Part shown: positions 30,815 to 50,096 of the stretch, piece after piece
How positions within the stretch are numbered: the first letter of the stretch is position 1
How the letters are laid out: the number at the start of each line of letters is the position of its first letter
NCBI GenBank assembly: GCA_024710905.1
Contig: JANJTV010000120.1
Coordinates: 1-64,000, forward strand
Direction: 5' to 3'
DNA from: Anaerolineales bacterium
GTDB lineage: Bacteria > Chloroflexota > Anaerolineae > Anaerolineales > Villigracilaceae
Length of the DNA stretch: 64,000 nt
Notes under the pieces: generated by a model
Database searches by the model: none
Told to the model about the DNA's origin: nothing
What the model saw: the letters and a program-made list of their open reading frames with translations, nothing else
Translations under genes and position numbers: made by a program

Positions 30815-31987
30815 CTACGCCAAAATGTTGTTGGATTTAAGCGATTGAATTTCTGATTCGGAATACCCCAACTCGCGGAGCAAGCCCGGGGTGTGTTCCC
30901 CCACCTCAGGCAGGGAGGCCGCTTCCGGGCCGGTTTCCTGCTGCATTAAGAACGGCAGGCGCGGCAGGCGCGTTTCTTCGCCGGAAGGCAAGGTTGTGAG
31001 AATCAGGCTGCCGCCTGCGGCCAGTTGCGGGTCGTCGAACAGGTCTTCGGGGCGGGCAATCGGAGAGAAGGGCAGCTCGGCCTGCTCGCAACGGGAAATC
31101 ACTTCTGCCAGGGAAAGACCAGCCATCATCTCCCGCACGGCGGGCAGGAACCACTCCCGCTGCGAAATGCGGTCGTTGTTGGTTGCCAAGCGGGTGTCCG
31201 CCAGCCAGTCTGTACGGCCAAAGGCCTGGCAGAATTTTGCCCATTGTTTGTCGCTGGTAACGCCGACAAAAACCCGTTGGCCGTCAACTGTCTCAAATTG
31301 GTGATAAATGGCCCAGGCACTGACGCGTGCAGGCATGGGTGGCACCGGCTCACCGGAAACAGCCGAATAGGCCATGTGGTGGCCCATCAGGAAGGCGGAG
31401 GTTTCAAACAGGGCGCTTTGCACCAACTGGCCCTGGCCGGTTGAGTCGCGTTCGCGCAAGGCCAGCAAAACGGCCATCGCGCCCATCATGCCGGTGGTGA
31501 CATCAATGACCGATGCCCCGGCGCGCAACGGCTGGCCAACCGGGCCGGTCATATAGGCCAGGCCAGACATCATCTGCACCACTTCATCCAGCGCGGTTCG
31601 GGACTGATACGGCCCGGGCAGGAATCCTTTTAATTGGCAGTACACCAGCCGGGGGTAGCCCGCCGCAAGTTGTTCATATCCCAGGCCTAACCTTTCCATT
31701 GTGCCGGGGGCGTAGTTTTCGACCAGAACATCCGTTGTGGCAAGCAATTTTTGGATGATTTCCAGCCCCTGCGGGTCTTTCAGGTTGACGGCCAGGCTTT
31801 TCTTATTACGGTTGAAAAATGGGAAATAGCCCATGCCAAAGCCCTTCAGGCGGCGGGTCGGGTCGCCTTCGGGCGGTTCAATGCGGATGACCTCCGCGCC
31901 GAGATCGGCCAGGAACAGGCCAGTGGTAGGGCCCAGCACGGCGTGGGTAAATTCCAGCACGCGGGTGCCAGCCAGTGGGCGACTCAT
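30815..31987 (-). CDS. Family III CoA transferase (CaiB/BaiF type)
   Basis: The protein has 390 aa, usual for the family. The N-terminal signature L-A-G-T-R-V-L-E-F-T and L-G-A-E-V-I-R-I-E-P are present, and the acylating Asp is D162 in A-S-V-I-D-V-T-T-G-M. Such enzymes move CoA between carboxylic acids, for example succinyl-CoA to malate or citramalate. The ATG overlaps the dehydratase small subunit stop by 4 nt. With the dehydratase pair and the HMG-CoA-lyase-type enzyme upstream, it could activate a branched malate-type acid for cleavage (inference). It is the last gene of the 15-gene operon. Confidence 0.88.
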   Translation of the reverse strand: MSRPLAGTRVLEFTHAVLGPTTGLFLADLGAEVIRIEPPEGDPTRRLKGFGMGYFPFFNRNKKSLAVNLKDPQGLEIIQKLLATTDVLVENYAPGTMERLGLGYEQLAAGYPRLVYCQLKGFLPGPYQSRTALDEVVQMMSGLAYMTGPVGQPLRAGASVIDVTTGMMGAMAVLLALRERDSTGQGQLVQSALFETSAFLMGHHMAYSAVSGEPVPPMPARVSAWAIYHQFETVDGQRVFVGVTSDKQWAKFCQAFGRTDWLADTRLATNNDRISQREWFLPAVREMMAGLSLAEVISRCEQAELPFSPIARPEDLFDDPQLAAGGSLILTTLPSGEETRLPRLPFLMQQETGPEAASLPEVGEHTPGLLRELGYSESEIQSLKSNNILA

Positions 31988-32478
31988 TTGTAGCCGCCTT
32001 TCTGGTTCAGGAAATCCACCAGCCCCCCGGCGTTGAGAATCTCCAGCATGACATCCGGCATTTTGGTGGCCTGCCAGATCTGGCGGTTGCTGGAAACCGC
32101 GCCATTGAGGATATCCACTGTAACCTGCGCGCCGGGTTGGATGTCGTGCTGCGGGGCTTCAACCAAGAGCAGGCCAATGTTAATGGCATTGCGGAAGAAA
32201 ATGCGGGCAAACGAACGCGCCACCACCGCCGAAACCCCCGCCGCCTTGAGGGCAATCGGCGCCTGCTCACGGCTGGATCCACAGCCAAAGTTACTGCCTA
32301 CTACCAGCACATCCCCGGTGCGGACGGCGCTGGCAAAGGCTGGGTCGAGGTCTTCAAGTACGTGTGCGGCCAGGTCAGTTGTATCGAGTGTTTTGGTGTA
32401 TTTGCCGGGGATGATGCGGTCCGTATCAATGTTATCCACATTATAGACGTGGGCCTTGCCGGTGATGATGGTGGTCAT
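31984..32478 (-). CDS. Aconitase-family dehydratase, small subunit (LeuD/DmdB-like)
   Basis: The protein has 164 aa, the swivelling small subunit of a two-part hydro-lyase. Signature residues are D-T-D-R-I-I-P-G-K-Y (18-27) and G-S-N-F-G-C-G-S-S-R (61-70). The short length and the D-T-D-R-I-I form match the homoaconitase, citraconate and dimethylmaleate hydratase branch, which also contains isopropylmalate isomerase of archaea and Chloroflexota. It overlaps the large subunit by 4 nt. No other leucine genes (leuA, leuB) are near, so a catabolic hydratase is favoured, but a leucine role cannot be excluded. Confidence 0.85.
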   Translation of the reverse strand: MTTIITGKAHVYNVDNIDTDRIIPGKYTKTLDTTDLAAHVLEDLDPAFASAVRTGDVLVVGSNFGCGSSREQAPIALKAAGVSAVVARSFARIFFRNAINIGLLLVEAPQHDIQPGAQVTVDILNGAVSSNRQIWQATKMPDVMLEILNAGGLVDFLNQKGGYK

Positions 32479-33695
32479 AGGGCCTCCGGGTCGACGATTT
32501 CACCCGCCACAGCCGCGGCGGCCACCACGGCCGGGGAAGCAAGGAAAATACTGGCACGCGGGTTGCCCATGCGCCCCTGGAAGTTGCGGTTGGTGGAGGA
32601 AATGGTCACTTCGCCGTCGCCGGGCACGCCCAGGTGGGTGCCCACGCAAGGCCCACAGCCGGAGGTGATGAACACTGCCCCGGCCTCTGTCAGCGTCTGG
32701 ATGGTTCCATCGGCTAGGGCAGCCTCGAATACCGCTTTGGAAGCCGGGGCAATGATCAGGCGTACGGCCAGTTTACGGCCACGCAATACTTCGGCGACGG
32801 CCTGCAAGTCCTCGAGGCGGCTGTTGGTGCACGAGCCAATGAAGGCAGCATCCACTTTTTGGCCAAGTACTTCATCAATCGGGATGACATTATCCGGCGA
32901 GTGGGGAACGGCCACCTGCGGGCGCAGGGAGGAGACATCCACTTCGTAGCGAGCGCGGAAGTCGGCGCTTTCATCCACCAGCTGGTGCTCAAACGGTTCG
33001 TCCAGGCGCAGGCCGGTGGTGTCCACCAGCCCGGCTTTGGCGCCCATCTCGGCCACCATATTGGCCAGCACCATGCGGCTGGCAAGGGTCATTTGCTCCA
33101 CAACCGGGCCATTGAATTCAATGGATTCATAAACAGCGCCTTCCACTCCCATTCGCTGTACCAGATGCAGGATGATGTCTTTGGCGGTAATGCCTTTTGG
33201 CAGACGGCCGGTAAGCGTGAACAATACGGTCTGGGGAACTTTGAGCCAGGTTTGGCCAGTACGCAGCACCCCGGCCAGGTCCGTGGAACCAACGCCAACG
33301 GCAAATGCGCCCAGCGCGCCATAGGTTGGCGTGTGCGAATCCGCGCCGAGGAACAGGTCGCCGGGGCGGACGTGTCCGTTTTCCACCATCAACTGGTGGC
33401 AGATGCCCGCGCCCACGTCGTAGAGTTTGAGTCCCTGCTGACGGGCAAAATCGCGCATCATTTTATGCAAGTTGGCCACGCGCTCGTTCGGCGCCGGGGA
33501 GGCGTGGTCAATGACCAGAAAGGCTTTTTCGCGGTTCCAGACCGTTTTGCCGCCCATTTGTTCAAAGGCTTTAATCGCGAACGGCGCTGTGGCGTCGGTA
33601 GCCATCACGCCGTCCACATCCACAATGGCGATTTCACCAGCGCGGACGGGCTTCCTGGCGTGTTTGGAGATAATGCGTTCAGAAAGGGTTGCCAT
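32475..33695 (-). CDS. Aconitase-family dehydratase, large subunit (LeuC/DmdA-like)
   Basis: The protein has 406 aa. The 4Fe-4S ligands C289 (I-G-S-C-T-N-S-R), C347 and C350 (S-G-C-G-P-C) are all present, with G-A-D-S-H-T-P-T-Y-G (117-126). The compact length is that of the homoaconitase/dimethylmaleate hydratase branch rather than the longer LeuC of leucine operons. Likely chemistry is reversible hydration of a maleate- or citraconate-type acid. An ATG at 33707 would add four residues; the ATG at 33695 fits the family start M-A-T-L-S-E-R-I. It lies between the HMGL fusion gene and the small subunit in one operon. Confidence 0.85.
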   Translation of the reverse strand: MATLSERIISKHARKPVRAGEIAIVDVDGVMATDATAPFAIKAFEQMGGKTVWNREKAFLVIDHASPAPNERVANLHKMMRDFARQQGLKLYDVGAGICHQLMVENGHVRPGDLFLGADSHTPTYGALGAFAVGVGSTDLAGVLRTGQTWLKVPQTVLFTLTGRLPKGITAKDIILHLVQRMGVEGAVYESIEFNGPVVEQMTLASRMVLANMVAEMGAKAGLVDTTGLRLDEPFEHQLVDESADFRARYEVDVSSLRPQVAVPHSPDNVIPIDEVLGQKVDAAFIGSCTNSRLEDLQAVAEVLRGRKLAVRLIIAPASKAVFEAALADGTIQTLTEAGAVFITSGCGPCVGTHLGVPGDGEVTISSTNRNFQGRMGNPRASIFLASPAVVAAAAVAGEIVDPEAL

Positions 33696-33711
33696 GGGAT
33701 GAAACATAAAA

Positions 33712-35100
33712 TTAGTCTGTAACCAGTTTGTGCATTTTGGCGGGCAATTCCTTACCGAGCAAGGCCTCCATGCGCCGCGAGAGCGCCGCCACTTTGGGGA
33801 TGTCCACCCCGGTCTGGATGCTCATTTCGTGCAGCATGTAGGCCGTGTCCTCCGTGGCAACATTGCCTTTAGCGGTCTGGATGAACGGGCAACCGCCCAG
33901 CCCGCCAAAGGATGTGTCAAACGCAGTAACTCCGGATTTGAGTGCCGAGAGCAGGTTGGCCAGGCCCTGCCCGCGTGTGTCGTGCAGGTGCAGCACCACC
34001 GGCACACTGCCCGCCATCGGCAGGATCTCCTGTACGGTCTTGCGAATCAATTGCGGGTTGCCCAGCCCGGCCGAATCGGCCAGCGAGAGTTCATCAATGC
34101 CCATGGCGAGGAAACGACGGGACAGAGAAACCACTTTGGCGGTCTCAATGCGGCCCTCAAAGGCGCAGCCGAAGGCCACCTGCACCCCGGCGCGTACCTG
34201 CATACCGTATTCGCGGGCTTTTTGTACCATGGCGGACATTTCCTGCATGCCTTCCTCGATGCTGGTATTGGCGTTCTTCAGGGCCAGCGTTTCGGAGGCC
34301 GGTACACCCATATCCACCTTGCGGATGCCCGCTGCAGCGGCCCGTTCGAGGCCTTTCATGTTCAGCACCAGCGCGGAATAAGTCACGTCATCAAACTTCG
34401 GCAGGGAGGCACACAGCGCGTCAGCATCGGCCAGTTGCGGCACAATCCTCGGGTTGACAAACGAAGTAACTTGAATCTCTTTCAGACCTGCTTCAACCAG
34501 CCCGTGCACAAACTCAAGTTTGGTTTCGGTCGGGATGAATTTCTCCTCGCGCTGGATGCCGTCGCGCAGTCCAACTTCCACCAGCGAGACTTCTATCGGT
34601 ACGGTCGGAACTTCAAGGGCTTCGCTGCGCCGCCACAGGCGGTTGTGATACAGCAATGGGATGTCGAAATCAGAAACCGCCAGGTCTTTCACTTCACCAA
34701 CAAAAATCGTGTGATCGCCGCCGTCGTACATGGCCCAGACCGTACAATCCACCCAGGCCAGGCTGTCGGGCAGCAATGGCGCACCCGTGGCAGCAGTGGT
34801 GACATTCAGCCCGTCAAACCGGTCTTTAATTTCAGGTTTCATCCCGGCGAACCGCATGCCCAGGTCGAGTTGGCGAGCGCTGAGAACGTTCACGGCAAAA
34901 TAGCCGCTTTCGGCAATAACATTGTGGGTGAATAGGCGTTTATTTAGCGAGACCAGCACCAGCGGCGGCTCGAGGCTCAGGCTGGTAAACGAACTGGCTG
35001 TAATACCAATCGGCGTCTCACCATGCCGGGTGGTAACGACCGTTACCCCGGAAGCAAACTGGGACATGGCACGCTTGAAGTTATCGGGGGAATAGGCCAT
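33712..35100 (-). CDS. Fusion: flavin reductase domain plus HMG-CoA-lyase-type DRE-TIM lyase
   Basis: The protein has 462 aa in one uninterrupted frame. Residues 1-160 are a flavin reductase-like FMN domain (F-A-S-G-V-T-V-V-T-T, G-I-T-A-S-S-F-T-S-L-S-L-E-P-P, ending L-L-Y-H-N-R-L-W-R-R). Residues 168-462 are an HMG-CoA-lyase-type barrel with R179/D180 in V-G-L-R-D-G-I-Q, metal ligands H371 and H373 in H-L-H-D-T, catalytic C404 in G-L-G-G-C-P and N413 in K-G-N-V-A-T-E-D. The lyase half therefore looks active, splitting a 3-hydroxyacyl-CoA such as a citramalyl- or HMG-type thioester. The fusion is unusual; the reductase could feed FMNH2 to an oxygenase of this locus (inference). Confidence 0.88.
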   Translation of the reverse strand: MAYSPDNFKRAMSQFASGVTVVTTRHGETPIGITASSFTSLSLEPPLVLVSLNKRLFTHNVIAESGYFAVNVLSARQLDLGMRFAGMKPEIKDRFDGLNVTTAATGAPLLPDSLAWVDCTVWAMYDGGDHTIFVGEVKDLAVSDFDIPLLYHNRLWRRSEALEVPTVPIEVSLVEVGLRDGIQREEKFIPTETKLEFVHGLVEAGLKEIQVTSFVNPRIVPQLADADALCASLPKFDDVTYSALVLNMKGLERAAAAGIRKVDMGVPASETLALKNANTSIEEGMQEMSAMVQKAREYGMQVRAGVQVAFGCAFEGRIETAKVVSLSRRFLAMGIDELSLADSAGLGNPQLIRKTVQEILPMAGSVPVVLHLHDTRGQGLANLLSALKSGVTAFDTSFGGLGGCPFIQTAKGNVATEDTAYMLHEMSIQTGVDIPKVAALSRRMEALLGKELPAKMHKLVTD

Positions 35101-35106
35101 ACTGGG

Positions 35107-35904
35107 TTAATCTTCTTTGAACAGATCGCGCTTGATAAACGGGGCGGTCAGGAAACGCAGCATCAACCCGAAGCGCGAGAGATATTCAATATGTGCGCCA
35201 TTCTTCGGCCTGGAGAGCATTTGCTTCACAAGGAAAGGCACAACGTCCTCCACCCGGCTGGCGATGATATTAAAAATCGGTTTGAACCGCGCCCACTCGT
35301 CAGAATGCGGGTCAAATTGCCCCAGCACCATGTCCGTCTTGACCATGCCTGGCTGCAGGCTGCTAACCCGCACCTGCGTGCCCTCCAACTCGGCGGCCAG
35401 GGTCTTATTAATGAACGATACCGCCGCTTTCGACGAGCCATAAATGCCAATGCCGGGGCGCACACGGCCATTGGAGCCAAATCCTTCAAAATTAAAAATA
35501 TGCCCGAAGCCCTGCGCCAACATGCCCTTCACAGCCACACGCACGCCGTTCAGCAGGCCAAAGACATTTGCGCCAAAAATATTGTTGATGGTGGCCTGGT
35601 CCACTTCCCAGAGTTTAATTTGTGGATGCGCCAGCCCGGCGTTATTAATCCAGATGTCCACCCGTCCGAATTTGGCTACAGCGGAATCCCAGAGTTTTTG
35701 TACATCTTCCGGGCGGGTGACGTCGCAGGCGCACGAGGCGAGGCGTTCCGTACCGAAACGGGATTCCAGCTGACGGGCGGCCTGCTCCAGCGCCGCAGGG
35801 TTGCGCCCGCTGATGACGACGGAACACCCCTCGGCCAGGAATCCCCCGGCCAGACCCAATCCGATTCCCCTGGTAGAACCGGTAATGACAATCACCTTGC
35901 TCAT
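35107..35904 (-). CDS. Short-chain dehydrogenase resembling chlorophyll b reductase (NOL/NYC1)
   Basis: The protein has 265 aa. Standard SDR motifs are T-G-S-T-R-G-I-G (8-15), N-N-A-G (87-90), S144, Y155 and K159. Beyond these, three stretches recall plant NOL/NYC1 as I remember those sequences: V-D-I-W-I-N-N-A-G, H-I-F-N-x-x-G-x-G-S-x-G with Y-G-S-S-K, and P-G-M-V-x-T-x-x-x-L-G followed by F-N-I-I. NOL/NYC1 reduce the 7-formyl group of chlorophyll b. The gene overlaps the upstream barrel-protein gene by 4 nt and lies three genes from a Rieske oxygenase. A generic ketoreductase is the alternative. Confidence 0.8.
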   Translation of the reverse strand: MSKVIVITGSTRGIGLGLAGGFLAEGCSVVISGRNPAALEQAARQLESRFGTERLASCACDVTRPEDVQKLWDSAVAKFGRVDIWINNAGLAHPQIKLWEVDQATINNIFGANVFGLLNGVRVAVKGMLAQGFGHIFNFEGFGSNGRVRPGIGIYGSSKAAVSFINKTLAAELEGTQVRVSSLQPGMVKTDMVLGQFDPHSDEWARFKPIFNIIASRVEDVVPFLVKQMLSRPKNGAHIEYLSRFGLMLRFLTAPFIKRDLFKED

Positions 35905-36848
35905 GCCGCCACCCAGTTGAGCACGCCAAAGCTGGTGTATAGCATTTTGTCTGATTTGTAGAATTGCCAGACCACGCTCATGTTGAAGTTGTCGTCGATG
36001 ATGAATTCGCGGCCTTTGATTTTGAGCGACTCGCCGTAGAAGTGCTGGCTGGTGTAGAGCGCGCGGCCATAGCCAAAGGAATTGCCGAACAGGTCTGGCC
36101 CTTCAAAGAAATGGCGGTTGTTGTTGCGATAGCGATTGAACTTGTAGTTTTTGCTGAATACGCCGCTGATGGAAATGTTCATCTCGGCGTGCAGCAGGTC
36201 GAGCGGTTTGTAGTCCATGCGCACTTGGTTGGTGCCCAGTTTTCGCTGGTCTGCACCATACACCAGCATTTCACCCTGCCAGTGCCCGGATTTCTTGGAC
36301 GGCAGGATGTGTGGGTTGCGGCCATTGGTTTTTTCGGTTTCGCAGAAGGCGTCGATGCGGGTTTTGGTTTCAGCATTGGTGTGATAGTCAAACGCCACTT
36401 TGTAAATGCCGTTGAATACGGTGCAGATCTTTGGCCCGTCGTAAATGAGCGAAGAATAGACCTGGGTCTGGCCGTCGGGCAGGATGTGCACCATGGTGCG
36501 CAAGTCCCCCGTCCAGCCGGGGGAATAATAGTGCGCGTCTACTAGGCTGCCATAAGGATGTCCCGCGCCAATAAAATCCGGCCCGAGGTAAATGCGGTCC
36601 TGGTCGCTATCGATGACGCCAAATGAGAAGATATCCGAGACTTCAAAACGTGCCACCAACGGCCCGGCAGAATCCTGCAGGTGGGTGTTCATCGTATATG
36701 TGGTCGAGCCTTTTGCCTGGTCAAAGACAGACGAACGGTAGACCTTGTTGTAGCCGATGTGGTTGCCTTCGGTGTCGAAAATGGAAGGCAGGCCGTGCCA
36801 CTCGCCTTCAATGGATTTTTGCCAGTTGGAAGGTTGCGGGTTGCTCAT
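35901..36848 (-). CDS. Two-domain calycin-like (lipocalin/DUF3598-type) protein
   Basis: The protein has 315 aa with no signal peptide. Two copies of a barrel-start motif are seen: G-E-W-H-G near residue 15 and G-H-W-Q-G near 190. Each is followed by a Gly-rich turn and repeated beta strands, so two eight-stranded barrels in tandem are likely. The same motif occurs in three other proteins of this operon. Barrels of this type include bilin lyases (CpcS) and other tetrapyrrole carriers, which would fit the neighbours. Function is not proven. The ATG at 36848 has AGGAG upstream; the codon at 36851 is TTG. Confidence 0.65.
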   Translation of the reverse strand: MSNPQPSNWQKSIEGEWHGLPSIFDTEGNHIGYNKVYRSSVFDQAKGSTTYTMNTHLQDSAGPLVARFEVSDIFSFGVIDSDQDRIYLGPDFIGAGHPYGSLVDAHYYSPGWTGDLRTMVHILPDGQTQVYSSLIYDGPKICTVFNGIYKVAFDYHTNAETKTRIDAFCETEKTNGRNPHILPSKKSGHWQGEMLVYGADQRKLGTNQVRMDYKPLDLLHAEMNISISGVFSKNYKFNRYRNNNRHFFEGPDLFGNSFGYGRALYTSQHFYGESLKIKGREFIIDDNFNMSVVWQFYKSDKMLYTSFGVLNWVAA

Positions 36849-36865
36849 CAAATCTCCTTACAAGA

Positions 36866-37588
36866 CTATTTTTCAACCGATTGATTAATCAGGACGTGAC
36901 GCATTTTTTCGCTGGTTTCCGCGCCAACCAATCGCTCCACCTGCGCCCAGACCTTGTCCACGTTCGGGTCAAAAATGGCGGCGCGATTCAGTTGGTCGCG
37001 CCCGGCAAAGTCGGCGGCAGGCACCGCCCCGGTGGGAATGCCATTTTCGACCAGGTTAAACCAGTGTTCGAGATAGCCATTCACCGGGGCCTGGATCTGC
37101 CCAAACGCCGATTCGTTTGCGCGGTAAGCCAGCATCCACGGCGACATGAGCGCGTATTGCTTCGGCCCAAGCTGGGCGGGAGTCAGGCCTTCAATTTTCT
37201 TGGCTTCTTCAAAAATAGGCGTCAGGTCGTCAAAGATGGCGTTCAGGTAAGCCAGGTTGGCGCCCAGGTCGGCGCGCGGAATCAGGTCCAGGTGGAAGGC
37301 AAAGTACGGCCCGGCCAGCACCGAATCGAGGGTGAAATGCGGGATGTAGCTGCCCGGCGCAGTGAAGGCAAAGATCATGTGCGAATCCAGGCCGATCGGC
37401 GGGACGGCCAGGCCAATGTAAACCATCTTGTGAACCTTATCACCGCTAAACAGGCGCAGGCTGCCCACCGGGGCCGGGGACATCGGGCTGGTGAGGGTCA
37501 TGTACGGCGCGCCGATTTCGGTCAGGCCAAAGCGTTTCTGGATTTTTTCAAGCGTTCCAAGCGAAAGCTGGGCAGGCAGGGAGGACAT
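36866..37588 (-). CDS. Red chlorophyll catabolite reductase (RCCR) homolog A
   Basis: The protein has 240 aa. The core matches plant RCCR (Pfam RCC_reductase, related to ferredoxin-dependent bilin reductases): Y-I-P-H-F-T-L-D (81-88), then H-L-D-L-I-P-R-A-D-L (99-108) and the C-terminal R-D-Q-L-N-R-A-A-I-F-D-P-N-V-D (197-211). D88 aligns with Glu154 of Arabidopsis RCCR, and an Asp in 207-211 with Asp291, both reported active-site residues. RCCR reduces the C20/C1 double bond of the open tetrapyrrole with ferredoxin electrons. The gene lies 28 nt downstream of the Rieske oxygenase in the same operon. The substrate may differ from the plant one. Confidence 0.75.
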   Translation of the reverse strand: MSSLPAQLSLGTLEKIQKRFGLTEIGAPYMTLTSPMSPAPVGSLRLFSGDKVHKMVYIGLAVPPIGLDSHMIFAFTAPGSYIPHFTLDSVLAGPYFAFHLDLIPRADLGANLAYLNAIFDDLTPIFEEAKKIEGLTPAQLGPKQYALMSPWMLAYRANESAFGQIQAPVNGYLEHWFNLVENGIPTGAVPAADFAGRDQLNRAAIFDPNVDKVWAQVERLVGAETSEKMRHVLINQSVEK

Positions 37589-37616
37589 GGTGTACTTCTC
37601 CGTGATGGGAATAAAT

Positions 37617-38741: not shown

Positions 38742-38757
38742 CTTCTTTTCTCCTTGT

Positions 38758-40520: not shown

Positions 40521-40533
40521 ACAGTTCTCTCTC

Positions 40534-41373: not shown

Positions 41374-41377
41374 GGCA

Positions 41378-42280: not shown

Positions 42281-42282
42281 GC

Positions 42283-43098: not shown

Positions 43099-43109
43099 GA
43101 TCGGCTCCT

Positions 43110-43565
43110 TTAGGGCTGCTGCACGCGCACAAAGTCTTGAATCTGGAATATTAACGTCTTGCCATCGCGCACCTTGTGGGTGATGATGCGGCGGTTATTC
43201 GGGTCAATGAAATAATGGTTGTTATAGACCGTGGACTGCGAGACGTTGCTCTCAATAGTAAAGACATAATTGTAGGGGGTCAGTTCCGTTCCGTGCAGCT
43301 GGACCATCTCATTGCCGCCTGAGCAATACTTGCCATCCACTTTGACGTCTGTGTGATAGACCGCCGGGCCATAGCCGTACAGCTTCTCAAAATCCTCGTG
43401 CAGGTGCCAAGTGTTCTCGTCAATCCAGTACACATCCATGTGCACCGCGCTGGCCTCCAGGAAATTCCCCTGACCATCAAAGGTTTTGCACAACCCTTCC
43501 CAGCGCCCCATAAAGCACTGGTACGAACGGGTGGATTTCGGATCACCGTAATTTTTCTCGCTCAT
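43110..43565 (-). CDS. Small single-domain calycin-like protein, paralog 4
   Basis: The protein has 151 aa, the length of one barrel. G-R-W-E-G-L-C-K-T-F-D-G-Q-G (20-33) matches the DUF3598/CpcS-like barrel start and the motif repeated in three larger proteins of this operon. It is the first structural gene after gntR (11 nt apart). Candidate roles are binding or delivery of a tetrapyrrole or its breakdown products. There is no catalytic signature. Confidence 0.65.
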   Translation of the reverse strand: MSEKNYGDPKSTRSYQCFMGRWEGLCKTFDGQGNFLEASAVHMDVYWIDENTWHLHEDFEKLYGYGPAVYHTDVKVDGKYCSGGNEMVQLHGTELTPYNYVFTIESNVSQSTVYNNHYFIDPNNRRIITHKVRDGKTLIFQIQDFVRVQQP

Positions 43566-43576
43566 TGAAAAGACTC

Positions 43577-44296
43577 CTAAATATTGAGTTGGAACTTGAA
43601 GCGATCGCCCCGGTAGTTGGCCCGCAGGAACTCAAGCGGTTTGCCCGCTGAATCCGAATACACCACCTGGATGGACAGCACCGGTTCACCCGGCTTGATT
43701 TTCAACAGACCGGCTTCGGTCGTCCCGGCAGGCACGGCCTGCACCGTGCGGCGGATGCGGATGCCGTCCCGGTCGGGCAGTTCACGCATGTAGTCGCGCA
43801 GGGCTTCGTCGCTGGCATTTTCAGGGTCAAATTTGCCATGGCGGGTAAGGGCCACAAAGTGCCGCCCAATCGGTTCGCCATTGGCGCGCAGCAACAACTC
43901 CACCAGATAGACCTTTTCATCTTCCGGGATGCCCAGCGCCTCCTGCACCTGCTGGAAGGGCACGCCATTGCCACGGCTGAGGAATTGCCATTCCGGCTCA
44001 ATGCCCTGCTGGCGCATCAAGGCAGTGATGCTGATGCGCTCCATCGGGTCGTGTACGATCTCACGTGCGGCCACAAACGTACCCTGCCCGCGATGGCGGG
44101 TGAAACGGCCTTCAAAGGTCAGTTCGGCCAGGGCCTGGCGCACGGTGGTCCGGCTGAGTCCGTAGGTTTCCTGCAATTCCTGTTCGCTGGGCACCAGGTC
44201 GCCGGGCTTCCATTCGCCGGAGTCAAGCTTGTCAACAATCAATTGTTTGAGCTGGTAATACAGGGGGAGGGGGGATTCGCGGTCAATTGTGATCAT
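43577..44296 (-). CDS. GntR/HutC-family transcriptional regulator with UTRA domain
   Basis: The protein has 239 aa. The N-terminal winged helix (residues 5-75) carries P-S-E-Q-E-L and the recognition helix L-S-R-T-T-V-R-Q-A-L. Residues 90-237 form the UTRA ligand-binding domain (R-x-x-x-G-x-P with L-V-E-L-L-L-R-A-N-G-E-P-I). Such regulators release DNA when a pathway metabolite binds. The ATG at 44296 is used; the frame extends to a TTG at 44320. It heads the 15-gene minus-strand operon and is divergent from the amidohydrolase operon. The perfect palindrome at 44332-44349 overlaps both promoters and is the expected operator. Confidence 0.92.
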   Translation of the reverse strand: MITIDRESPLPLYYQLKQLIVDKLDSGEWKPGDLVPSEQELQETYGLSRTTVRQALAELTFEGRFTRHRGQGTFVAAREIVHDPMERISITALMRQQGIEPEWQFLSRGNGVPFQQVQEALGIPEDEKVYLVELLLRANGEPIGRHFVALTRHGKFDPENASDEALRDYMRELPDRDGIRIRRTVQAVPAGTTEAGLLKIKPGEPVLSIQVVYSDSAGKPLEFLRANYRGDRFKFQLNI

Positions 44297-44312
44297 GGTT
44301 TTCACCAAAGTA

Positions 44313-44340
44313 TTGTACAAAGAAAAAGAAATGTTATAAT
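44313..44340 (+). promoter_or_regulatory. Promoter of the amidohydrolase operon
   Basis: TTGTAC (44313-44318) and a perfect TATAAT (44335-44340) are 16 nt apart. The -10 box lies inside the GntR palindrome. Confidence 0.6.
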
Positions 44341-44349
44341 GTTATAACA
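44332..44349. promoter_or_regulatory. GntR operator palindrome
   Basis: TGTTATAATGTTATAACA is a perfect inverted repeat with 8-bp arms and a 2-bp centre. It covers the plus-strand -10 box and the expected minus-strand start point, so binding would shut both operons. Confidence 0.75.
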
Positions 44350-44378
44350 ATCATACTTATAAAGTACATTGTTGTCAA
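44350..44378 (-). promoter_or_regulatory. Promoter of gntR and the 15-gene operon
   Basis: On the minus strand a perfect TTGACA (44373-44378) and TATGAT (44350-44355) are 17 nt apart. The predicted start point falls within the palindrome. Confidence 0.75.
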
Positions 44379-44397
44379 GCACAAGGAGAATTACCGC

Positions 44398-45858
44398 ATG
44401 CTCGACCTGCTGATCAAAAACGTCCGGCTCGTCCGCCCCAACCAGGCGGATGTCCCCACAGTTGATATTGGCATCCGCGACGGCAAATTTGCCCGCATTG
44501 CCCCGTCCATTGAGTCCAGCGAAGCAAAAGAAGTACACGACGGCCAGGGCCGGCTGGCCTTCCCAGGCTTGGTGGATGCCCACATGCACGTAGGTATTTA
44601 CCAGCCGCTGGCACAGGATGCCGTCACCGAGAGCAAAGCTGCCGCCATGGGCGGCGTGACCAGCGCCATTACTTACTTCCGTACCGGCGAGTATTACCTG
44701 AACAAAGGCGGCGCATACAAGGATTTCTACCCCGAAGTATTGGATATTTCCTCTGGCCGCTACTGGGTGGATTATGCCTACCATCTCGCGCCAATCAACA
44801 AAAGCCATATCGATGAAATGCCCGCCCTGCTCAGTCAACACGGCGTTTCTTCTTTTAAAATCTTCATGTTCTACGGCGGGCACGGCCTGCATGGCAAGTC
44901 TGACCAGCAGCACAACTTCCTGAAACTGGCCGAAGATGAAAAATACGACTTTGCCCATTTTGAATTCATCATGCGCCAGCTCAGCGCGATGCTAAAAGCC
45001 AACCCGCAGCAGGCGCCCTACATCAGCCTGAGCCTGCACTGCGAGGTGGCAGATATTCTTAACGCCTACACCACCATCGTGCAGAAGGAAGGCAAACTCA
45101 AGGGCCTGCACGCCTACAGCGCCGCCCGACCGCCGCACAGCGAGGGGCTGGCCGTTTTTATTGCCTCCTACCTGGCGCATGAGACCAACTGCGCCAACAT
45201 CAATCTGTTGCATCTCACTTCGCGCAAGGCGCTTGAAGCCGCCCTGATGATGCGTGACCTGTTCCCGCACATCAACTTCCGCCGCGAGGTGACCATCGGC
45301 CACCTGCTGCTGGATACCGACGAGCCCAACGGCGTGCTGGCCAAGGTCAACCCGCCCATCCGACCGCGCGCCGATGTGGAATTCCTGTGGGAGAAAGTGC
45401 TCTCCGGCGATGTGGACTGGGTGGTCAGCGACCACGCCTGCTGCTCCAGCGAGCAAAAATACAACGCCGCCCACCCGGACGACATCTGGATGGCCAAAAG
45501 CGGCTTCGGCGGCACGGAGTACATGCTCTCCGGCCTGCACAGCGAAGGCCGCAAACGCGGACTGTCGCTTAACCGTATGGCCGAGCTGGTGAGCTGGAAC
45601 CCCGCCCAGCGCTACGGCCTGCTCGCCAAAGGCGATGTCACCGAAGGGTACGACGCCGACCTGGTGCTCTTTGACCCGAATGAGACCTTCATCGTGCGTG
45701 CCACCGAATCGGAATCATTCCAGGGCTATACGCCCTTTGAAGGCCACGAACTGAACGGGCGCGTCAAGATCACCTACCTGCGCGGCCAGAAAATTTACGA
45801 AAACGGCAAGGTGCTCGGCCCGGCCAACGGGCAGTACATCAAACGTCCCGGCGCATGA
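44398..45858 (+). CDS. Hydantoinase/dihydropyrimidinase-type cyclic amidohydrolase
   Basis: The protein has 486 aa. The full binuclear metal site is present: H62 and H64 (D-A-H-M-H), the carboxylated lysine K154 (S-S-F-K-I-F-M-F), H214 (S-L-H-C-E), H272 (L-L-H-L-T-S-R) and D345 (V-S-D-H). Enzymes of this branch open cyclic imides, hydantoins and dihydropyrimidines. Beside tetrapyrrole genes, a maleimide- or lactam-type ring from pyrrole breakdown is an attractive substrate (inference). Pyrimidine catabolism is the alternative, but no other pyrimidine genes are near. AAGGAG lies 9 nt before the ATG, and the stop overlaps the LLM gene. Confidence 0.87.
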   Translation: MLDLLIKNVRLVRPNQADVPTVDIGIRDGKFARIAPSIESSEAKEVHDGQGRLAFPGLVDAHMHVGIYQPLAQDAVTESKAAAMGGVTSAITYFRTGEYYLNKGGAYKDFYPEVLDISSGRYWVDYAYHLAPINKSHIDEMPALLSQHGVSSFKIFMFYGGHGLHGKSDQQHNFLKLAEDEKYDFAHFEFIMRQLSAMLKANPQQAPYISLSLHCEVADILNAYTTIVQKEGKLKGLHAYSAARPPHSEGLAVFIASYLAHETNCANINLLHLTSRKALEAALMMRDLFPHINFRREVTIGHLLLDTDEPNGVLAKVNPPIRPRADVEFLWEKVLSGDVDWVVSDHACCSSEQKYNAAHPDDIWMAKSGFGGTEYMLSGLHSEGRKRGLSLNRMAELVSWNPAQRYGLLAKGDVTEGYDADLVLFDPNETFIVRATESESFQGYTPFEGHELNGRVKITYLRGQKIYENGKVLGPANGQYIKRPGA

Positions 45859-46772
45859 AATTCGGCATCCATTCCCCCTCCTGGCTGTACCCCGGCAACC
45901 CCTTCGACGGCATCCGCGAAAAAGCCCTGCGCCTCGAAGAACTGGGCTTTGCCTGGCTCTCGGTCATGGATCACATGATGCAAATCCCCGTGCACGGCCC
46001 GCCGGACGAGCCTTTCATGGAAGGTTGGACCACCCTCTCGGCGCTGGCCGCCGTCACCAGCAAAATCCGCCTTGCCACGCTGGTTTCGTCCACCTCCTAC
46101 CGCAACCCGGCCCTGCTGGCCAAAATGGCCGCCACGGTGGATGTCATCAGCAAGGGCCGCCTGACGCTGGGCATTGGCGCGGGCTGGTTCGAAGATGAAT
46201 ACCAGCAATACAATTGGGAATTCCTGCCCAAACCAGCCGACCGCATCCACCGTCTGGAAGACGCCATCAAATTGATTAAAGCCATGTGGATGGAAGAACG
46301 GGGTGACTACCGAGGCCGCTTTTATTCCGTTAAAGAGGCCATTCTCCAGCCCAAACCGATCCAAAAACCGCACCCACCCATCCTGGTGGGCGGCGCGGGC
46401 GAGCAACTGACCTTGCGAGTGGTGGCCCGTCACGGCAACGCCTGCAACCTGATTGGCAGCCCGCAGGAAGTGCGCCATAAATTTGATGTACTGGAACAAC
46501 ACTGTGAAAACGAAGACCGCAATTACAAGGATATTGAAAAAACAGCCCTGCTGAACGTGCTGGTTGCAAGGGATGAGAGCAACCTCTCAGCCCGCATGGC
46601 GCAGCTCGACGCGGGAACGCACTTCAGGGGGCACCCGCTGACCATCCCCCAGGCAGCAGACCTGTTTGGGCAATATCAGCAGGCCGGGGTACAGCTGCTG
46701 ATCATCAGCATTTATCGCAACGATGAAGACAGCCTGCAAGCCATTGCCGAAATGATGGGAAATTTTTCGTAA
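45855..46772 (+). CDS. LLM-class flavin-dependent oxidoreductase (F420/FMN)
   Basis: The protein has 305 aa in a luciferase-like TIM barrel. It has S-V-M-D-H-M near residue 36, I-R-L-A-T-L-V-S-S-T-S-Y-R-N-P (about 72-86), G-R-L-T-L-G-I-G-A-G-W and P-I-L-V-G-G-A-G. Members use F420H2 or reduced FMN for reductions or monooxygenations. The cofactor cannot be told from sequence. It overlaps the amidohydrolase gene by 4 nt. In this operon it may reduce or oxygenate a heterocyclic intermediate. Confidence 0.85.
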   Translation: MKFGIHSPSWLYPGNPFDGIREKALRLEELGFAWLSVMDHMMQIPVHGPPDEPFMEGWTTLSALAAVTSKIRLATLVSSTSYRNPALLAKMAATVDVISKGRLTLGIGAGWFEDEYQQYNWEFLPKPADRIHRLEDAIKLIKAMWMEERGDYRGRFYSVKEAILQPKPIQKPHPPILVGGAGEQLTLRVVARHGNACNLIGSPQEVRHKFDVLEQHCENEDRNYKDIEKTALLNVLVARDESNLSARMAQLDAGTHFRGHPLTIPQAADLFGQYQQAGVQLLIISIYRNDEDSLQAIAEMMGNFS

Positions 46773-46790
46773 TCGCCAAGGAGATTCCGC

Positions 46791-48068
46791 ATGACTAAAT
46801 TGACCGCCGAATTTTTATTTGACGACCTGACCCCCGCCGAGCGCGCCCGCGCCGAACGGGTGGAGGCCATCCTGCCCGAATTGCGCGCCCGTGCCGAGGA
46901 AGCTGACCGGCTGGGGCAATTCTATGCGCCGCATCGCGACACCCTCAGCCAGTCTGGCCTGCTGGGGCTGGTCATCCCGGAAGAATACGGCGGGTTGGGC
47001 GGCAACCTGCGCGACCTGGCCGCCGCGACCTTTGCCATGGGCACGGCCTGCCCGAGCACCGCGCTGGCTTATTTCTTCCACTGTTCCACGTCCTCGCGCG
47101 GATTGCTGGCCCTGGATGGGATCGCCGAAGGCAAGTTTAGCGAGCAGGAAATCCCGCAGGTGCGTGCATTTGGCGAGAAAGTGCTGCATAAAATGGGCAC
47201 CCAGGGGCAGTTCCTGGGCAATTTTGCCAGCGAATCGGCCAAGTCCTCCCAGAGCGCGGTACACATCACCACCGAGGCCGAGACTGTGGATGGCGGCTGG
47301 AAGTTGAACGGGGTCAAGTCTTTTGGCTGTAACACGGGTGTGGCCGACGCCTACCTAGTGGCCGCCAAACTGAAAGGCTACGAAACCGCCGAAGGGCTGG
47401 CAATGTTCTTTGTTAATCGCGACGCGGAAGGCGTGAGCGAGCGCCCCGGTTGGGACGCGCTGGGCATGCGCGCCACGGCCAGCCACGGGATCGTGTTAAA
47501 GGATGTCTTTGTACCAGACGAAGACGCACTAGGCGTGCCGGGCGCATTCGTTAAAATGATGCAATCCAGCCGCGGCTCGCTGATGGGCAACCAGCCTGCC
47601 ATCACCGCCATTTACCTCGGCGCGGCCAAGCAGGCCTACGATTTTGCGCTCGACTTCACCACCAAAATGAAATTTGAAGACACTGGCAAGCCCATCAACA
47701 CCAGCCCATTCCACCAGGAATTGATTGGCAAAATGACGGTTGAAATGGAAACCGCCCGACTGTGGCTGAAATACCAGATTGACCTGGAAACCTGTGAGCC
47801 GCCCATCAAGCCCAAGACCGAAGTCGTGCAGCACTGGCGCATGGCCAAAGGTGTGGCCTCCGAAGGCGCGTTTGAAGTGGCCCAACTGGCCATGAAGATG
47901 TGCGGCACCAGCAACACTGGCAACAGCGGCGTGATTTCGCGTATGCTGCGCGACATTGCCATGAGCCTGGTGATGGCCTTCCCCGCCGAACGCGGCCGCC
48001 TCGAAGCCGCCAAGAGCATCACCGACGGCGCAGAAACCAAGTCCTTTACCGTATCTGAGAGCAAATAA
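46791..48068 (+). CDS. Acyl-CoA dehydrogenase-family flavoprotein
   Basis: The protein has 425 aa. The acyl-CoA dehydrogenase fold is clear: G-L-L-G-L-V-I-P-E-E-Y-G-G-L-G-G (57-72), W-K-L-N-G-V-K-S-F-G, W-D-A-L-G-M-R-A-T-A-S and the C-terminal helices M-C-G-T-S-N-T-G-N-S-G. The usual catalytic Glu is not obvious, and the sequence leans toward the oxygenase-like subgroup (DszC/HpaB-related). Either dehydrogenation of an acyl-CoA or flavin monooxygenation is possible. It is third in the plus-strand operon, 18 nt after the LLM gene. Confidence 0.82.
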   Translation: MTKLTAEFLFDDLTPAERARAERVEAILPELRARAEEADRLGQFYAPHRDTLSQSGLLGLVIPEEYGGLGGNLRDLAAATFAMGTACPSTALAYFFHCSTSSRGLLALDGIAEGKFSEQEIPQVRAFGEKVLHKMGTQGQFLGNFASESAKSSQSAVHITTEAETVDGGWKLNGVKSFGCNTGVADAYLVAAKLKGYETAEGLAMFFVNRDAEGVSERPGWDALGMRATASHGIVLKDVFVPDEDALGVPGAFVKMMQSSRGSLMGNQPAITAIYLGAAKQAYDFALDFTTKMKFEDTGKPINTSPFHQELIGKMTVEMETARLWLKYQIDLETCEPPIKPKTEVVQHWRMAKGVASEGAFEVAQLAMKMCGTSNTGNSGVISRMLRDIAMSLVMAFPAERGRLEAAKSITDGAETKSFTVSESK

Positions 48069-48090
48069 TCCCCATTCAGGAGAACCCAAC

Positions 48091-49566
48091 ATGGCTTTCC
48101 CGCAAATCACCCCCCCGCCGCTCGACGAAGTAAAAGCCCGCTTCGAGTTGTTCGATTATATTGACGGTGAACGGCTGGCCCCAGAAATTGAAATGGACGG
48201 ATGGGTCAGCAACCCGAACACGGGAGAACGAATCGCCCGCCAGATGGCCACCAGCCCGGCGAAGATTGAAAAAGCCCTGTCTGTGGCCCAGCGCCTGCAC
48301 CAGTCCGGGGCATGGGCCAATACCCCGCCTGAAAAACGCGCGGACATCCTTGACGCAGCCGCCAACGCCCTGATGGGCCTTGTCCCGGCGATTGCCGCCG
48401 TGGAATCCTATAACACTGGGATTGTCTTCAGCACCAGCAGTTTTGTCAACAACATCGTCTGGCTGGCCTTCAAAGCGGCGGCAGGCGTGCTGCGCAGCGG
48501 ATATGCCGTCTCGAAGGTGCCCGGCCCGCACGGTGACGTGGAAATCCTGCGCAAGCCACTGGGTGTGGCGGTGTGCATCGTGCCATGGAATTCCCCGGCG
48601 GCGCTGGCAGCCCACAAAGTGGCCAACGCCTTGGCGGCGGGCTGCCCGGTGATTCTCAAGCCAACCGAATGGGCGCCATACTCCTGCCTGTTGCTAGCCG
48701 ATGGATTGGAAGCCGCCGGGCTGCCGAAAGGCCTGTTCCAGATCGTGAACGGCGGCGCGGAAGTGGGCCAAAAACTGGTCAGCGACAAACGCGTGCGGGC
48801 GGTTTCCTTCACCGGCGGCCTGAATGGCGGCCAGGCGGTGGCGGCAGCCTGCGCGGCGGATTTCAAATCGCTGCAACTGGAATTGGGCGGCAACAATGCC
48901 ATGGTGGTACTGCCGGATGCCGATATAGAGAAAGTGGCCGAAGGCATTGTGGCCGGAATGACCACCCTTAACGGTCAGTGGTGCCGCGCCCTCGGGCGGC
49001 TGGTGGTGCACGAATCGATCCAGGAGCAGGTGCTCAATGCGGCCATTGAGAAGTTCAAGCAGGTGCAGGCCGGGGATGCCCTCTCGCTGGAAAGCCAGCT
49101 CGGCCCGCTGGCCAATGAAGCCCACAAAGGCCGCATCGAAAGCGCCATCCGCGCTCTGGAGCAAAAAGGCGGCAAAAGGCATGCCGCAACTGCAACGCCA
49201 ACCGACGGCTATTACCTGCCGCCGACCATCATCACCGGCGTCGCGCCCGATGAAACGCTGGAGGAGATCTTCGGCCCGGTGGCTACGCTGCATACTTTCA
49301 AAACCGACGAGGAAGCCGTGGCGCTCGCCAACCAGACCCCGTATGGCCTGGGCGGGTATGTTTATGGCAGCAATGAAGAACATGCCCTGAAAGTTGCCCG
49401 CCAGATGAACACCGGCGGCGTGAAGATCAACGGCGTCAGCCTGCTGGAGTTAAATGTGGACGCGCCGCGCCCGGCCTGGGGTCTGAGCGGTTTCGGCGAG
49501 GAAGGTACGCTGGAAACCTTTGATGTCTTCTGCGGCAAGAGCGTGGTAGGCGTGGCCGGGAAGTAA
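48091..49566 (+). CDS. NAD(P)-dependent aldehyde dehydrogenase
   Basis: The protein has 491 aa. Catalytic residues are N167 (I-V-P-W-N-S-P), E264 (L-E-L-G-G-N) and the nucleophile C298 in G-Q-W-C-R-A, where the residues around Cys are atypical (usually G-Q-x-C-x-A/S). It oxidises an aldehyde to an acid. Candidates in this locus are semialdehydes from ring fragments or the aldehyde of phytol (inference). It starts 22 nt after the flavoprotein gene. It is not closely similar to the ALDH16 protein at 6802. Confidence 0.9.
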   Translation: MAFPQITPPPLDEVKARFELFDYIDGERLAPEIEMDGWVSNPNTGERIARQMATSPAKIEKALSVAQRLHQSGAWANTPPEKRADILDAAANALMGLVPAIAAVESYNTGIVFSTSSFVNNIVWLAFKAAAGVLRSGYAVSKVPGPHGDVEILRKPLGVAVCIVPWNSPAALAAHKVANALAAGCPVILKPTEWAPYSCLLLADGLEAAGLPKGLFQIVNGGAEVGQKLVSDKRVRAVSFTGGLNGGQAVAAACAADFKSLQLELGGNNAMVVLPDADIEKVAEGIVAGMTTLNGQWCRALGRLVVHESIQEQVLNAAIEKFKQVQAGDALSLESQLGPLANEAHKGRIESAIRALEQKGGKRHAATATPTDGYYLPPTIITGVAPDETLEEIFGPVATLHTFKTDEEAVALANQTPYGLGGYVYGSNEEHALKVARQMNTGGVKINGVSLLELNVDAPRPAWGLSGFGEEGTLETFDVFCGKSVVGVAGK

Positions 49567-49712
49567 GCCGGACGAAAAAACACATTTCCTTGTGGGGCGG
49601 ATGCTCTCTGGGCGCACGGCTGCATCGTGTCCTGTGGGTATTCGTCCCTACTGTTTTAACAGGGGATTGTATTTGGTTGGGAATTTGCTAGAATGAAATG
49701 AAGGAAGACTCC

Positions 49713-50096
49713 ATGTCCCCCATCCGAATGTCAAAAATAGAAGATTCCATGCGCGTGGTGATGGCCTTTCACGAGGCCCTCAATCGACGCGACATGCCCG
49801 GCATGCTGGACTATATGGGCGAGGATGTCCTGTTCGAGAACACCTATCCCGCGCCGGACGGCACACCCTACCGGGGCAAAGCCGCCAATGCGCAGTTCTG
49901 GCAGGATTTCTTCGACCAGGCGGAACAGTTTCATTTTGAAATTGAAGACCTGTTCGGCCTTAACCAGCACTGCGTGCTACGCTGGAAATATACCTGGGTG
50001 GATGCGAACGGCCAGCCCGGCCATGTGCGCGGCGTGGATATTTTCCTGGTCCGCGAGGGGCTGATTCGTGAGAAGTTGTCGTATGTAAAGGGATAA
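49713..50096 (+). CDS. SnoaL-like (NTF2-fold) protein
   Basis: The protein has 127 aa. The start of the fold is typical: A-F-H-E-A-L-N-R-R-D-M-P-G-M-L-D-Y-M, then F-E-N-T-Y-P-A-P-D-G-T-P-Y-R-G and a C-terminal W-x-W/Y strand with V-R-G-V-D-I-F-L-V-R-E-G. NTF2-fold proteins of this kind act as small cyclases, isomerases or binding proteins. The ATG at 49713 has AAGGAA 6 nt upstream. A gap of 146 nt from the ALDH gene suggests it may have its own promoter, but it ends the plus-strand set before the terminator. Confidence 0.75.
   Translation: MSPIRMSKIEDSMRVVMAFHEALNRRDMPGMLDYMGEDVLFENTYPAPDGTPYRGKAANAQFWQDFFDQAEQFHFEIEDLFGLNQHCVLRWKYTWVDANGQPGHVRGVDIFLVREGLIREKLSYVKG

Follow-up and report, generated by a model that had tools for sequence, protein, structure and literature searches.

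A conserved, GntR-headed gene cluster with two red chlorophyll catabolite reductase-like proteins in the Anaerolineae and its possible role in tetrapyrrole catabolism

Layout and conservation of the locus

The window analysed here is a stretch of 64,000 nucleotides from an Anaerolineales bacterium (positions 1 to 64,000 of contig JANJTV010000120.1, assembly GCA_024710905.1) and lies on a 91-kb contig. The metagenome-assembled genome from which it comes belongs to the Chloroflexota and measures 3.43 Mb. Segment 30815-50096 of the window carries two divergent runs of genes, whose families were assigned with Pfam and NCBIfam and which include two proteins related to the red chlorophyll catabolite reductase (RCCR) of plants. 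The minus-strand run extends, tightly packed, from 44320 down to 30815 and the plus-strand run from 44398 to 49566, while a further plus-strand gene (49698-50096) comes after a gap of 131 bp. A first-pass annotation made from the letters alone had read the locus as two divergent, tightly packed operons for the degradation of chlorophyll or bilins. The two runs are confirmed in the sequence. Neither the SnoaL-like gene behind the gap nor the gene starting at 45855 is conserved with the cluster.

The RCC_reductase matches found in 61 relatives and in 396 genomes of the class were collected, their surroundings retrieved and all genes of the window mapped onto them. The cluster recurs in the same order in about 20 Chloroflexota genomes, with proteins roughly 34–88 % identical. 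This common order starts with the GntR regulator, a small protein, a DUF3891 protein, the barrel proteins BarC and BarB, RCCR1 (where present), a hydrolase, a Rieske oxygenase and RCCR2. It continues with BarA, a short-chain dehydrogenase/reductase (SDR, where present), an HMG-CoA-lyase-type fusion, the large and small subunits of a hydratase, a CoA-transferase, an amidohydrolase, an acyl-CoA-dehydrogenase (ACAD)-like protein and an aldehyde dehydrogenase (ALDH). The genes that flank the cluster in the window occur in no other cluster locus. Since the order is kept in so many genomes at such levels of identity and without these flanking genes, the gene set is genuine and not a product of chance. 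The luciferase-like (LLM) gene (45855-46772) and the SnoaL-like gene are likewise found in no other copy; the conserved unit is therefore 30815-49566 minus the LLM gene, and the SnoaL-like gene probably lies outside the cluster. In all, the set comprises about 18 genes linked by a single conserved DNA switch, and its copies are scattered across the Chloroflexota. The recurrence of the same neighbours at RCC_reductase loci, which the first-pass annotation had put forward as a check, is borne out: the Rieske and hydrolase genes are constant neighbours across genomes.

The two RCCR-like proteins are distributed together. In the class sample of 396 genomes, RCCR1 was found in 14 and RCCR2 in 17, with both in 13, only one in 5 and neither in 378; the RCCR1 counts are lower bounds, as the PF06405 search missed the RCCR of one genome (G396, locus L086 on contig C5). 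The co-occurrence is highly significant (Fisher 4e-20), a value to be read with the reservation that related genomes are not independent, the carriers belonging to at least six families of the class. RCCR2 is present in 15 of the 16 RCCR1-bearing genomes tested; when 400 genomes sampled across the phylum were searched for it, every carrier belonged to this class. A narrow scan of genome contigs, meant to reach beyond the Chloroflexota, yielded four loci, all of them in Chloroflexi. Spread of the cluster by plasmids or phages was considered and rejected, no relative of RCCR1 or RCCR2 having been found in plasmids or viral contigs.

The RCCR-like proteins and the enzymes around them

RCCR1 (39720-40520, minus strand) is a match to the RCC_reductase family (PF06405, 1.7e-17), scoring 63.9 bits against a cut-off of 24.9. 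A profile made from RCCR1 and its aligned relatives retrieves the plant RCCR structures at 1.1e-18 and then GtPEBB and the ferredoxin-dependent bilin reductases (FDBRs) at 2.3e-7, the match to plant RCCR thus being the stronger one. RCCR2 (36866-37588, minus strand) gives no Pfam match even at E<=10, and its profile retrieves no FDBR among solved structures. The profiles of RCCR2 and RCCR1 can nevertheless be aligned by hhalign over 218 columns (probability 98.6 %, E 1.3e-15). Because the RCCR1 profile finds both plant RCCR and FDBRs and the RCCR2 profile matches that of RCCR1, both proteins are, as judged from profiles, members of the RCCR/FDBR superfamily, and RCCR1 alone is a Pfam RCC_reductase. 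Of the two RCCR homologs initially proposed, one is hence supported by a significant PF06405 match, while the other turns out to be a remote relative.

The active site allows the two proteins to be told apart. In GtPEBB, Asp-99 and Asp-219 are essential (PMC6755814). In a HMMER alignment their columns correspond to Ala109 and Asp232 of RCCR1; among 17 aligned RCCR1 sequences Asp232 is invariant, and the first position is occupied by Ala in 16 and by Val in one. The active-site carboxylates of plant RCCR are presumably Glu154 and Asp291, and RCCR1 has Ala where the plant enzyme has Glu; from the acid pair of either group it thus keeps the second Asp only. The same columns in RCCR2, as identified by profile alignment through RCCR1, hold Asp87 and Asp210, both invariant in six aligned sequences, and all 19 RCCR2 copies checked have the PHFTLD motif that contains Asp87. 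Since both acids are kept in RCCR2 and one in RCCR1, the former resembles an acid-pair reductase, whereas the latter seems to be a variant.

The neighbouring oxygenase (37617-38771, minus strand, with a likely start near 38735) is a Rieske non-haem iron protein of the VanA_C type (PF00355, 2.6e-21; PF19112, 2.3e-25). Its ligands are intact (CxH..CxxH and NxxDxxHxxxxH) and its closest solved relatives are SxtDIOX, NdmA, SxtT and DdmC. It had been annotated as an oxygenase with the ligand order of pheophorbide oxygenase (PaO). The Rieske part of this assignment stands but its PaO part does not: PF08417 is absent at E<=10, and the protein matches only Rieske and VanA_C. In one genus and a few other genomes (L046, L061, L062, L063, L064; L035, L026), two Rieske paralogs flank the hydrolase gene, one of which keeps the Rieske cluster motif without the mononuclear iron site and the other the reverse. 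A split pair of this kind could still function if electrons pass from one subunit to the other.

The proposed chlorophyllase-like hydrolase and chlorophyll b reductase-like SDR find no support beyond the level of their superfamilies. The former (38758-39756, minus strand) is a conserved alpha/beta hydrolase with an uncertain start codon, a weak Abhydrolase_5 match and weak matches to polyester hydrolases and cutinases; a chlorophyllase match was found neither in Pfam nor in PDB sequences. The SDR (35107-35904, minus strand; PF00106, 2.7e-42) is generic in NCBIfam and accessory, its gene being present in eight loci only and absent from many cluster copies. As regards the removal of magnesium from chlorophyll, the Mg-dechelatase (Staygreen, PF12638) occurs in none of the 18 carriers of the class sample, the genome of the window included, and in 11 of the 378 other genomes (G066, G102, G133, G191, G223, G293, G301, G313, G322, G335 and, with a weak match, G108). 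This pattern shows independence from the cluster, not exclusion. We also considered photosynthesis of the host itself as the reason for the cluster and rejected it; because the genome encodes no type II photosynthetic reaction centre, a self-made pigment is unlikely as the substrate.

A set of enzymes for acids and imides, as announced by the first-pass annotation, was indeed identified. The flavin reductase–HMG-CoA-lyase-type fusion (33712-35100, minus strand; PF01613, 6e-46; PF00682, 5e-42) scores 312 bits against an NCBIfam cut-off of 246 in its lyase part, matches PDB 2cw6 at 8e-68 and has intact active-site motifs (RDGxQ, HxH and GGLGGCP). Lyase homologs in one genus and in G404 come without the flavin reductase domain. 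The next two genes encode an aconitase-type hydratase of the isopropylmalate isomerase/homoaconitase family. The large subunit (acnL, 32475-33707, minus strand) exceeds the cut-off of TIGR01343 (516 against 386 bits) and has its Fe-S cysteines in the GSCTNS and CGPC motifs. The small subunit (acnS, 31984-32478, minus strand; PF00694, 2e-21) is closest to isopropylmalate/citramalate isomerase and homoaconitase. However, its substrate loop reads YTKT, invariant in ten clusters, and none of these ten subunits has the YLVY of isopropylmalate/citramalate isomerase 3vba or the YLRT of homoaconitase 2pkp. The run ends with a family III CoA-transferase (30815-31987, minus strand; PF02515, 2.5e-108) that keeps the VID motif and whose best NCBIfam model, succinate-glutarate CoA-transferase, is matched below its cut-off.

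On the plus strand, a cyclic amidohydrolase (44398-45858; PF01979, 1.2e-11) has intact metal ligand motifs and resembles allantoinase and D-hydantoinase, with scores below the equivalog cut-offs; it is a putative imide-ring hydrolase. The conserved ACAD-like flavoprotein (46791-48068; PF02770, PF08028) matches ACADs, DszC and HsaA, all below cut-offs, and weakly PigA. Since no catalytic Glu motif is recognisable near its C-terminus, it is suspected to be a flavin monooxygenase, possibly an FMN-dependent one that is supplied by the flavin reductase domain of the lyase fusion. The conserved ALDH (48091-49566; PF00171, 1e-116) closes the plus-strand run. The two genes without counterpart in other copies code for the LLM oxidoreductase, an accessory protein (plus strand; PF00296, 1.6e-45; TIGR03560 above cut-off), and the SnoaL-like small protein (plus strand; PF12680, 4e-20).

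The remaining conserved genes of the minus strand code for proteins that are less readily placed. BarA (35901-36851), a two-part calycin-like barrel protein, was recognised by Foldseek on a low-confidence model (pLDDT 51, the C-terminal half being best and the N-terminal half poor), the nearest structures being DUF3598 2o62 (1.3e-5), BFA1, nitrobindin and Ycf58 3bdr. BarC (41378-42280) is linked to BarA by hhalign (2.3e-14) and has a weak DUF3598_N match (E 0.076), and BarB (40534-41391) is linked to BarC (5.7e-8); both are conserved and classed as calycin-like barrels. A fourth barrel protein had been proposed at 43110-43565. This 150-aa protein, which is 65-74 % identical in seven other clusters and has no Pfam match above cut-off, may be lipocalin-like, but its link to the BarA profile is weak (E 0.0016, probability 16 %), so that the mutual links hold for three of the four. 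The DUF3891 protein (42283-43098; PF13030, 1.4e-41) has a largely conserved set of residues in its alignment (His, HisAsp, His, His, Asp). Its AlphaFold2 (AF2) model (pLDDT 84.5) has HD-domain proteins in the first 12 fold rows, but with Z of 5.3 or less, and no significant match by Foldseek. DUF3891 may be an HD-type metalloenzyme, either hydrolase or oxygenase; a literature search found no paper naming it.

A shared palindrome and a second operon type

The regulator at the head of the cluster (43577-44320, minus strand) is conserved there and combines a GntR domain (PF00392, 1.1e-18) with a UTRA domain (PF07702, 1.9e-19), as in a putative repressor of the GntR/HutC type. Between the divergent operons, a sigma-70 promoter-like site, TTGACA-17-TATGAT (44350-44378, minus strand; 11 of 12 matches), reads into the GntR gene and the minus operon. 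Directly downstream of it lies an 18-bp near-perfect palindrome, TGTTATAATGTTATAACA (44332-44349), a putative GntR operator that is common to all operons of the regulon described below. The pattern TGTYRYRAYRTTRYRACA was derived from the sites found upstream of GntR in the clusters. When up to one mismatch is allowed, the genome of the window contains three such sites, one in the window and two on contig C34, and the reversed pattern used as a control gives none. Neither C34 site had served to derive the pattern, and both head operons of a second type.

This second operon type was recognised through an RCCR homolog that is about 35 % identical to RCCR1 and occurs in another setting in six genomes. 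The genes around it encode a PCC-domain protein, an HpcH/HpaI aldolase, a CoA-transferase, an isochorismatase-type amidase, two membrane proteins, a hydrolase, a protein of the maleate-isomerase/EutA/Amdase family, an FAD monooxygenase and a nitrilase-type hydrolase. The amidase, the isomerase and similar members score below the curated cut-offs of known enzymes; in one genus the second operon type includes a methylisocitrate-lyase-family protein above cut-off. On C34 (L075:10119-14180 and L075:18078 to L076:7060), one operon comprises an FAD monooxygenase, an ALDH and an MFS transporter under the palindrome. At the other site the Amdase-family gene and a hydrolase–membrane proteins–amidase–CoA-transferase–PCC–HpcH–nitrilase series diverge from the palindrome. 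Besides the MFS transporter, these loci outside the window encode two small membrane proteins without recognised family.

The RCCR-bearing second operon adjoins the main cluster in G284 and lies elsewhere in G265 and G194, and in G404, G265 and G247 the main cluster has second-type genes, without an RCCR, at its side. Six genomes (G001, G080, G194, G265, G279 and G284) have a main cluster without RCCR1 and an RCCR in the second operon type; G396, at first scored as lacking RCCR1, is the same case and brings the total to seven. Since the RCCR sits in the second type where the main cluster is without RCCR1, both operon types appear to share one pathway.

The palindrome is closely tied to these genes. 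In 19 genomes with the cluster, that of the window included, 37 exact sites were counted, each of which adjoins a gene of one of the two sets; an exact site is missing from G080 and G404. Among 298 genomes sampled from the class, the palindrome occurs in 11 of 12 carriers and in 8 of 286 others (p 2.6e-14), an enrichment that is partly circular with respect to the GntR-proximal sites that gave the pattern and independent with respect to the second-type sites. In G151, acnL, acnS, the CoA-transferase and the amidohydrolase form an operon of their own on a separate contig, again under the palindrome, which therefore connects the acid and RCCR branches independently of adjacency. With a GntR-UTRA protein at its head and a palindrome common to all operons and rare elsewhere, the locus is predicted to be under GntR control, as first proposed, and to be the main part of a three-locus regulon. 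That the conserved unit and this regulon are real is as good as certain.

Proposed pathway, rival explanations and significance

The best explanation of the regulon, to which we give a probability of about 0.5, is the aerobic catabolism of a tetrapyrrole via substituted maleimides to CoA thioesters. This reading is preferred because two RCCR-superfamily proteins occur nearly always together, because synteny is maintained and because a shared operator joins loci with complementary functions. We infer the substrate and the reactions from gene families, motifs, gene order and the palindrome, and the parts of the reading differ in strength: a catabolic function is very likely, and a tetrapyrrole substrate is reasonably probable. 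If the substrate is a tetrapyrrole, it is likely to be an open-chain rather than a macrocyclic one. The fit of a bilin-type compound is no worse than that of chlorophyll. An environmental tetrapyrrole of the open-chain kind is favoured since it leaves the fewest missing steps, with room left for a chlorophyll catabolite.

In such a pathway, the MFS protein of the second locus would import the tetrapyrrole, most likely of the open-chain bilin type (or a chlorophyll catabolite), and the pigment or an intermediate would lift repression by GntR. The calycin/nitrobindin-like barrels would hold the pigment while both reductases of the RCCR/FDBR superfamily reduce double bonds in its bridges or rings, RCCR2 by means of the acid pair known from bilin reductases. 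Oxidative cleavage of the chain into single rings would then fall to three enzymes, namely the Rieske oxygenase, the ACAD-like flavoprotein (supplied by the flavin reductase domain) and the second-locus FAD monooxygenase, and would release substituted maleimides such as hematinic acid and methyl-ethyl- or methyl-vinyl-maleimide. Opening of the imide by the hydantoinase-like enzyme and removal of nitrogen by the isochorismatase-type amidase would give substituted maleates. Ring-opened hematinic acid is 2-methyl-cis-homoaconitate, the hydrate of which is a one-carbon homolog of 2-methylisocitrate, and this acid would suit an aconitase/homoaconitase-type hydratase with a YTKT loop of its own. Finally, the CoA-transferases would activate the hydrated acids, and lyases of the HMG-CoA-lyase and HpcH types would cleave them to oxo-acids and acyl-CoA. 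The presence of two CoA-transferases and two lyases would fit two kinds of rings, bearing either a propionate side chain or an ethyl/vinyl group. Among the products formed when chlorophyll or heme is broken down oxidatively, the literature names hematinic acid and methyl-ethyl- and methyl-vinyl-maleimide (PMC7318184). That the whole three-locus route operates in these uncultured Chloroflexota, leading aerobically from open-chain tetrapyrroles through maleimides and methyl-homoaconitate-type acids to CoA metabolism and mineralising the pyrrole rings of pigments, is a tentative proposal whose chances are somewhat below even.

Several observations speak against this interpretation. Within the cluster, none of the proteins could be recognised as a haem oxygenase, a PaO or a chlorophyllase, and a ferredoxin or reductase partner for the oxygenase was not identified in the operon. 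The activity of RCCR1 may differ, one of its active-site carboxylates being replaced, and three genomes (G247, G260 and G372) have a main cluster without RCCR1 and no RCCR found elsewhere by a search that had missed the one of G396. The amidohydrolase, the CoA-transferase and the lyases belong to generic families that serve other acid pathways too. Lastly, the suggested relation of the barrels to tetrapyrrole-binding calycins is weak, coming as it does from a low-confidence model.

These points bear differently on the alternatives. If RCCR-fold proteins had been recruited for another conjugated or N-heterocyclic compound, degraded via an imide or a maleate-type acid as in the nicotinate and pyrimidine pathways, then the amidase, isomerase, FAD monooxygenase and hydantoinase families, all of which occur in other N-heterocycle catabolism, and the missing catalytic acid of RCCR1 would be accounted for. 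However, the company of two RCCR-superfamily proteins and a number of barrel-like ones, of which one has a model close to nitrobindin and the Ycf58 calycin, would need some other shared reason, and we consider this alternative rather doubtful. Plant-like chlorophyll breakdown seems still less probable. It would make the Rieske protein a pheophorbide oxygenase and have the RCCRs reduce the red chlorophyll catabolite, the hydrolase remove the phytol or methyl ester and the SDR reduce chlorophyll b, mineralisation following thereafter. The homology of RCCR1 to the plant enzyme and the constant proximity of Rieske, hydrolase and RCCR genes agree with it, as does the activity on chlorophyll of a Mg-dechelatase homolog from the Anaerolineae (PMC8531759). 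Against it stand several results: the oxygenase has no detectable PaO domain and has SxtDIOX, NdmA and DdmC as its nearest solved relatives, the hydrolase does not match chlorophyllases, the SDR is generic and dispensable, cluster-bearing genomes of the sample are devoid of Mg-dechelatase, and RCCR1 is altered at the position of the plant Glu. The stepwise plant scheme that the first-pass annotation had in mind is thus unsupported, while its broader idea, opening of a tetrapyrrole followed by catabolism of the products, survives as the best reading and gains evidence from the shared operator; of the two outcomes that the annotation had named as refuting it, neither occurred.

The two remaining possibilities can be given little weight. 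A regulon that builds a compound, either a modified bilin or a secondary metabolite with a pyrrole in it, would be in line with the weak match of the ACAD-like protein to PigA and with the synthesis of bilins by FDBR relatives of other bacteria (PMC10151467), but assembly enzymes are lacking, and two CoA-transferases, two lyases, a hydratase, an amidohydrolase, an amidase and a nitrilase under one palindrome point to breakdown, which makes biosynthesis very improbable. Least credible of all is the chance juxtaposition of unrelated operons for pigments and for acid degradation; the acid branch does lie on a separate contig in G151, but there it bears the same palindrome, and elsewhere the order is kept in many genomes.

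Returning to the preferred reading of tetrapyrrole catabolism, what would be new is the pathway and not the protein folds. Like plant RCCR (Arabidopsis 2zxk/3agb), RCCR1 is a Pfam RCC_reductase, aligned over 221 profile positions and with the second active-site Asp kept, but it has Ala for the first acid, a remote second paralog beside it, no PaO partner and an acid-catabolism regulon around it. The bilin reductases PebA, PebB and PcyA are of the same superfamily, and RCCR2 keeps both FDBR acids; the pre-PcyA clusters, however, have BBAG globins, V4R and Fe-S proteins (PMC10151467), none of which occurs here. In nicotinate and pyrimidine catabolism, N-rings are opened and maleate-type acids processed by enzymes of the same kinds (the families of maleamate amidase, maleate isomerase, RutB and hydantoinase), whereas the members of the regulon fall below curated cut-offs and stand together with genes for RCCR, Rieske and HMG-CoA-lyase-type proteins. 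Similarly, the hydratase shares the two-subunit, aconitase-type organisation of isopropylmalate/citramalate isomerase and homoaconitase but differs in its substrate loop. The Anaerolineae Mg-dechelatase (an SGR homolog) is a further homolog of a chlorophyll-breakdown enzyme within this class (PMC8531759), found in other genomes than the regulon carriers. In the open literature, subscription journals being outside the search, we found no description of a bacterial RCCR catabolic locus or of a bacterial pathway that takes tetrapyrrole rings to central metabolism.

Haem and phycobilins add to the turnover of pigments, and plants and animals largely stop at open-chain tetrapyrroles. Chlorophyll itself is produced and degraded on a scale of 10^12 kg per year (PMC7318184). 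Bacterial RCCR homologs have so far figured as an outgroup in bilin-reductase trees (PMC10151467), and a bacterial origin of plant chlorophyll breakdown has already been suggested for the Mg-dechelatase from this class (PMC8531759). If the preferred reading is true, the regulon would supply candidate enzymes and a regulator and give the bacterial RCCR homologs a function, and it would also bear on the bacterial origin of chlorophyll breakdown in plants.

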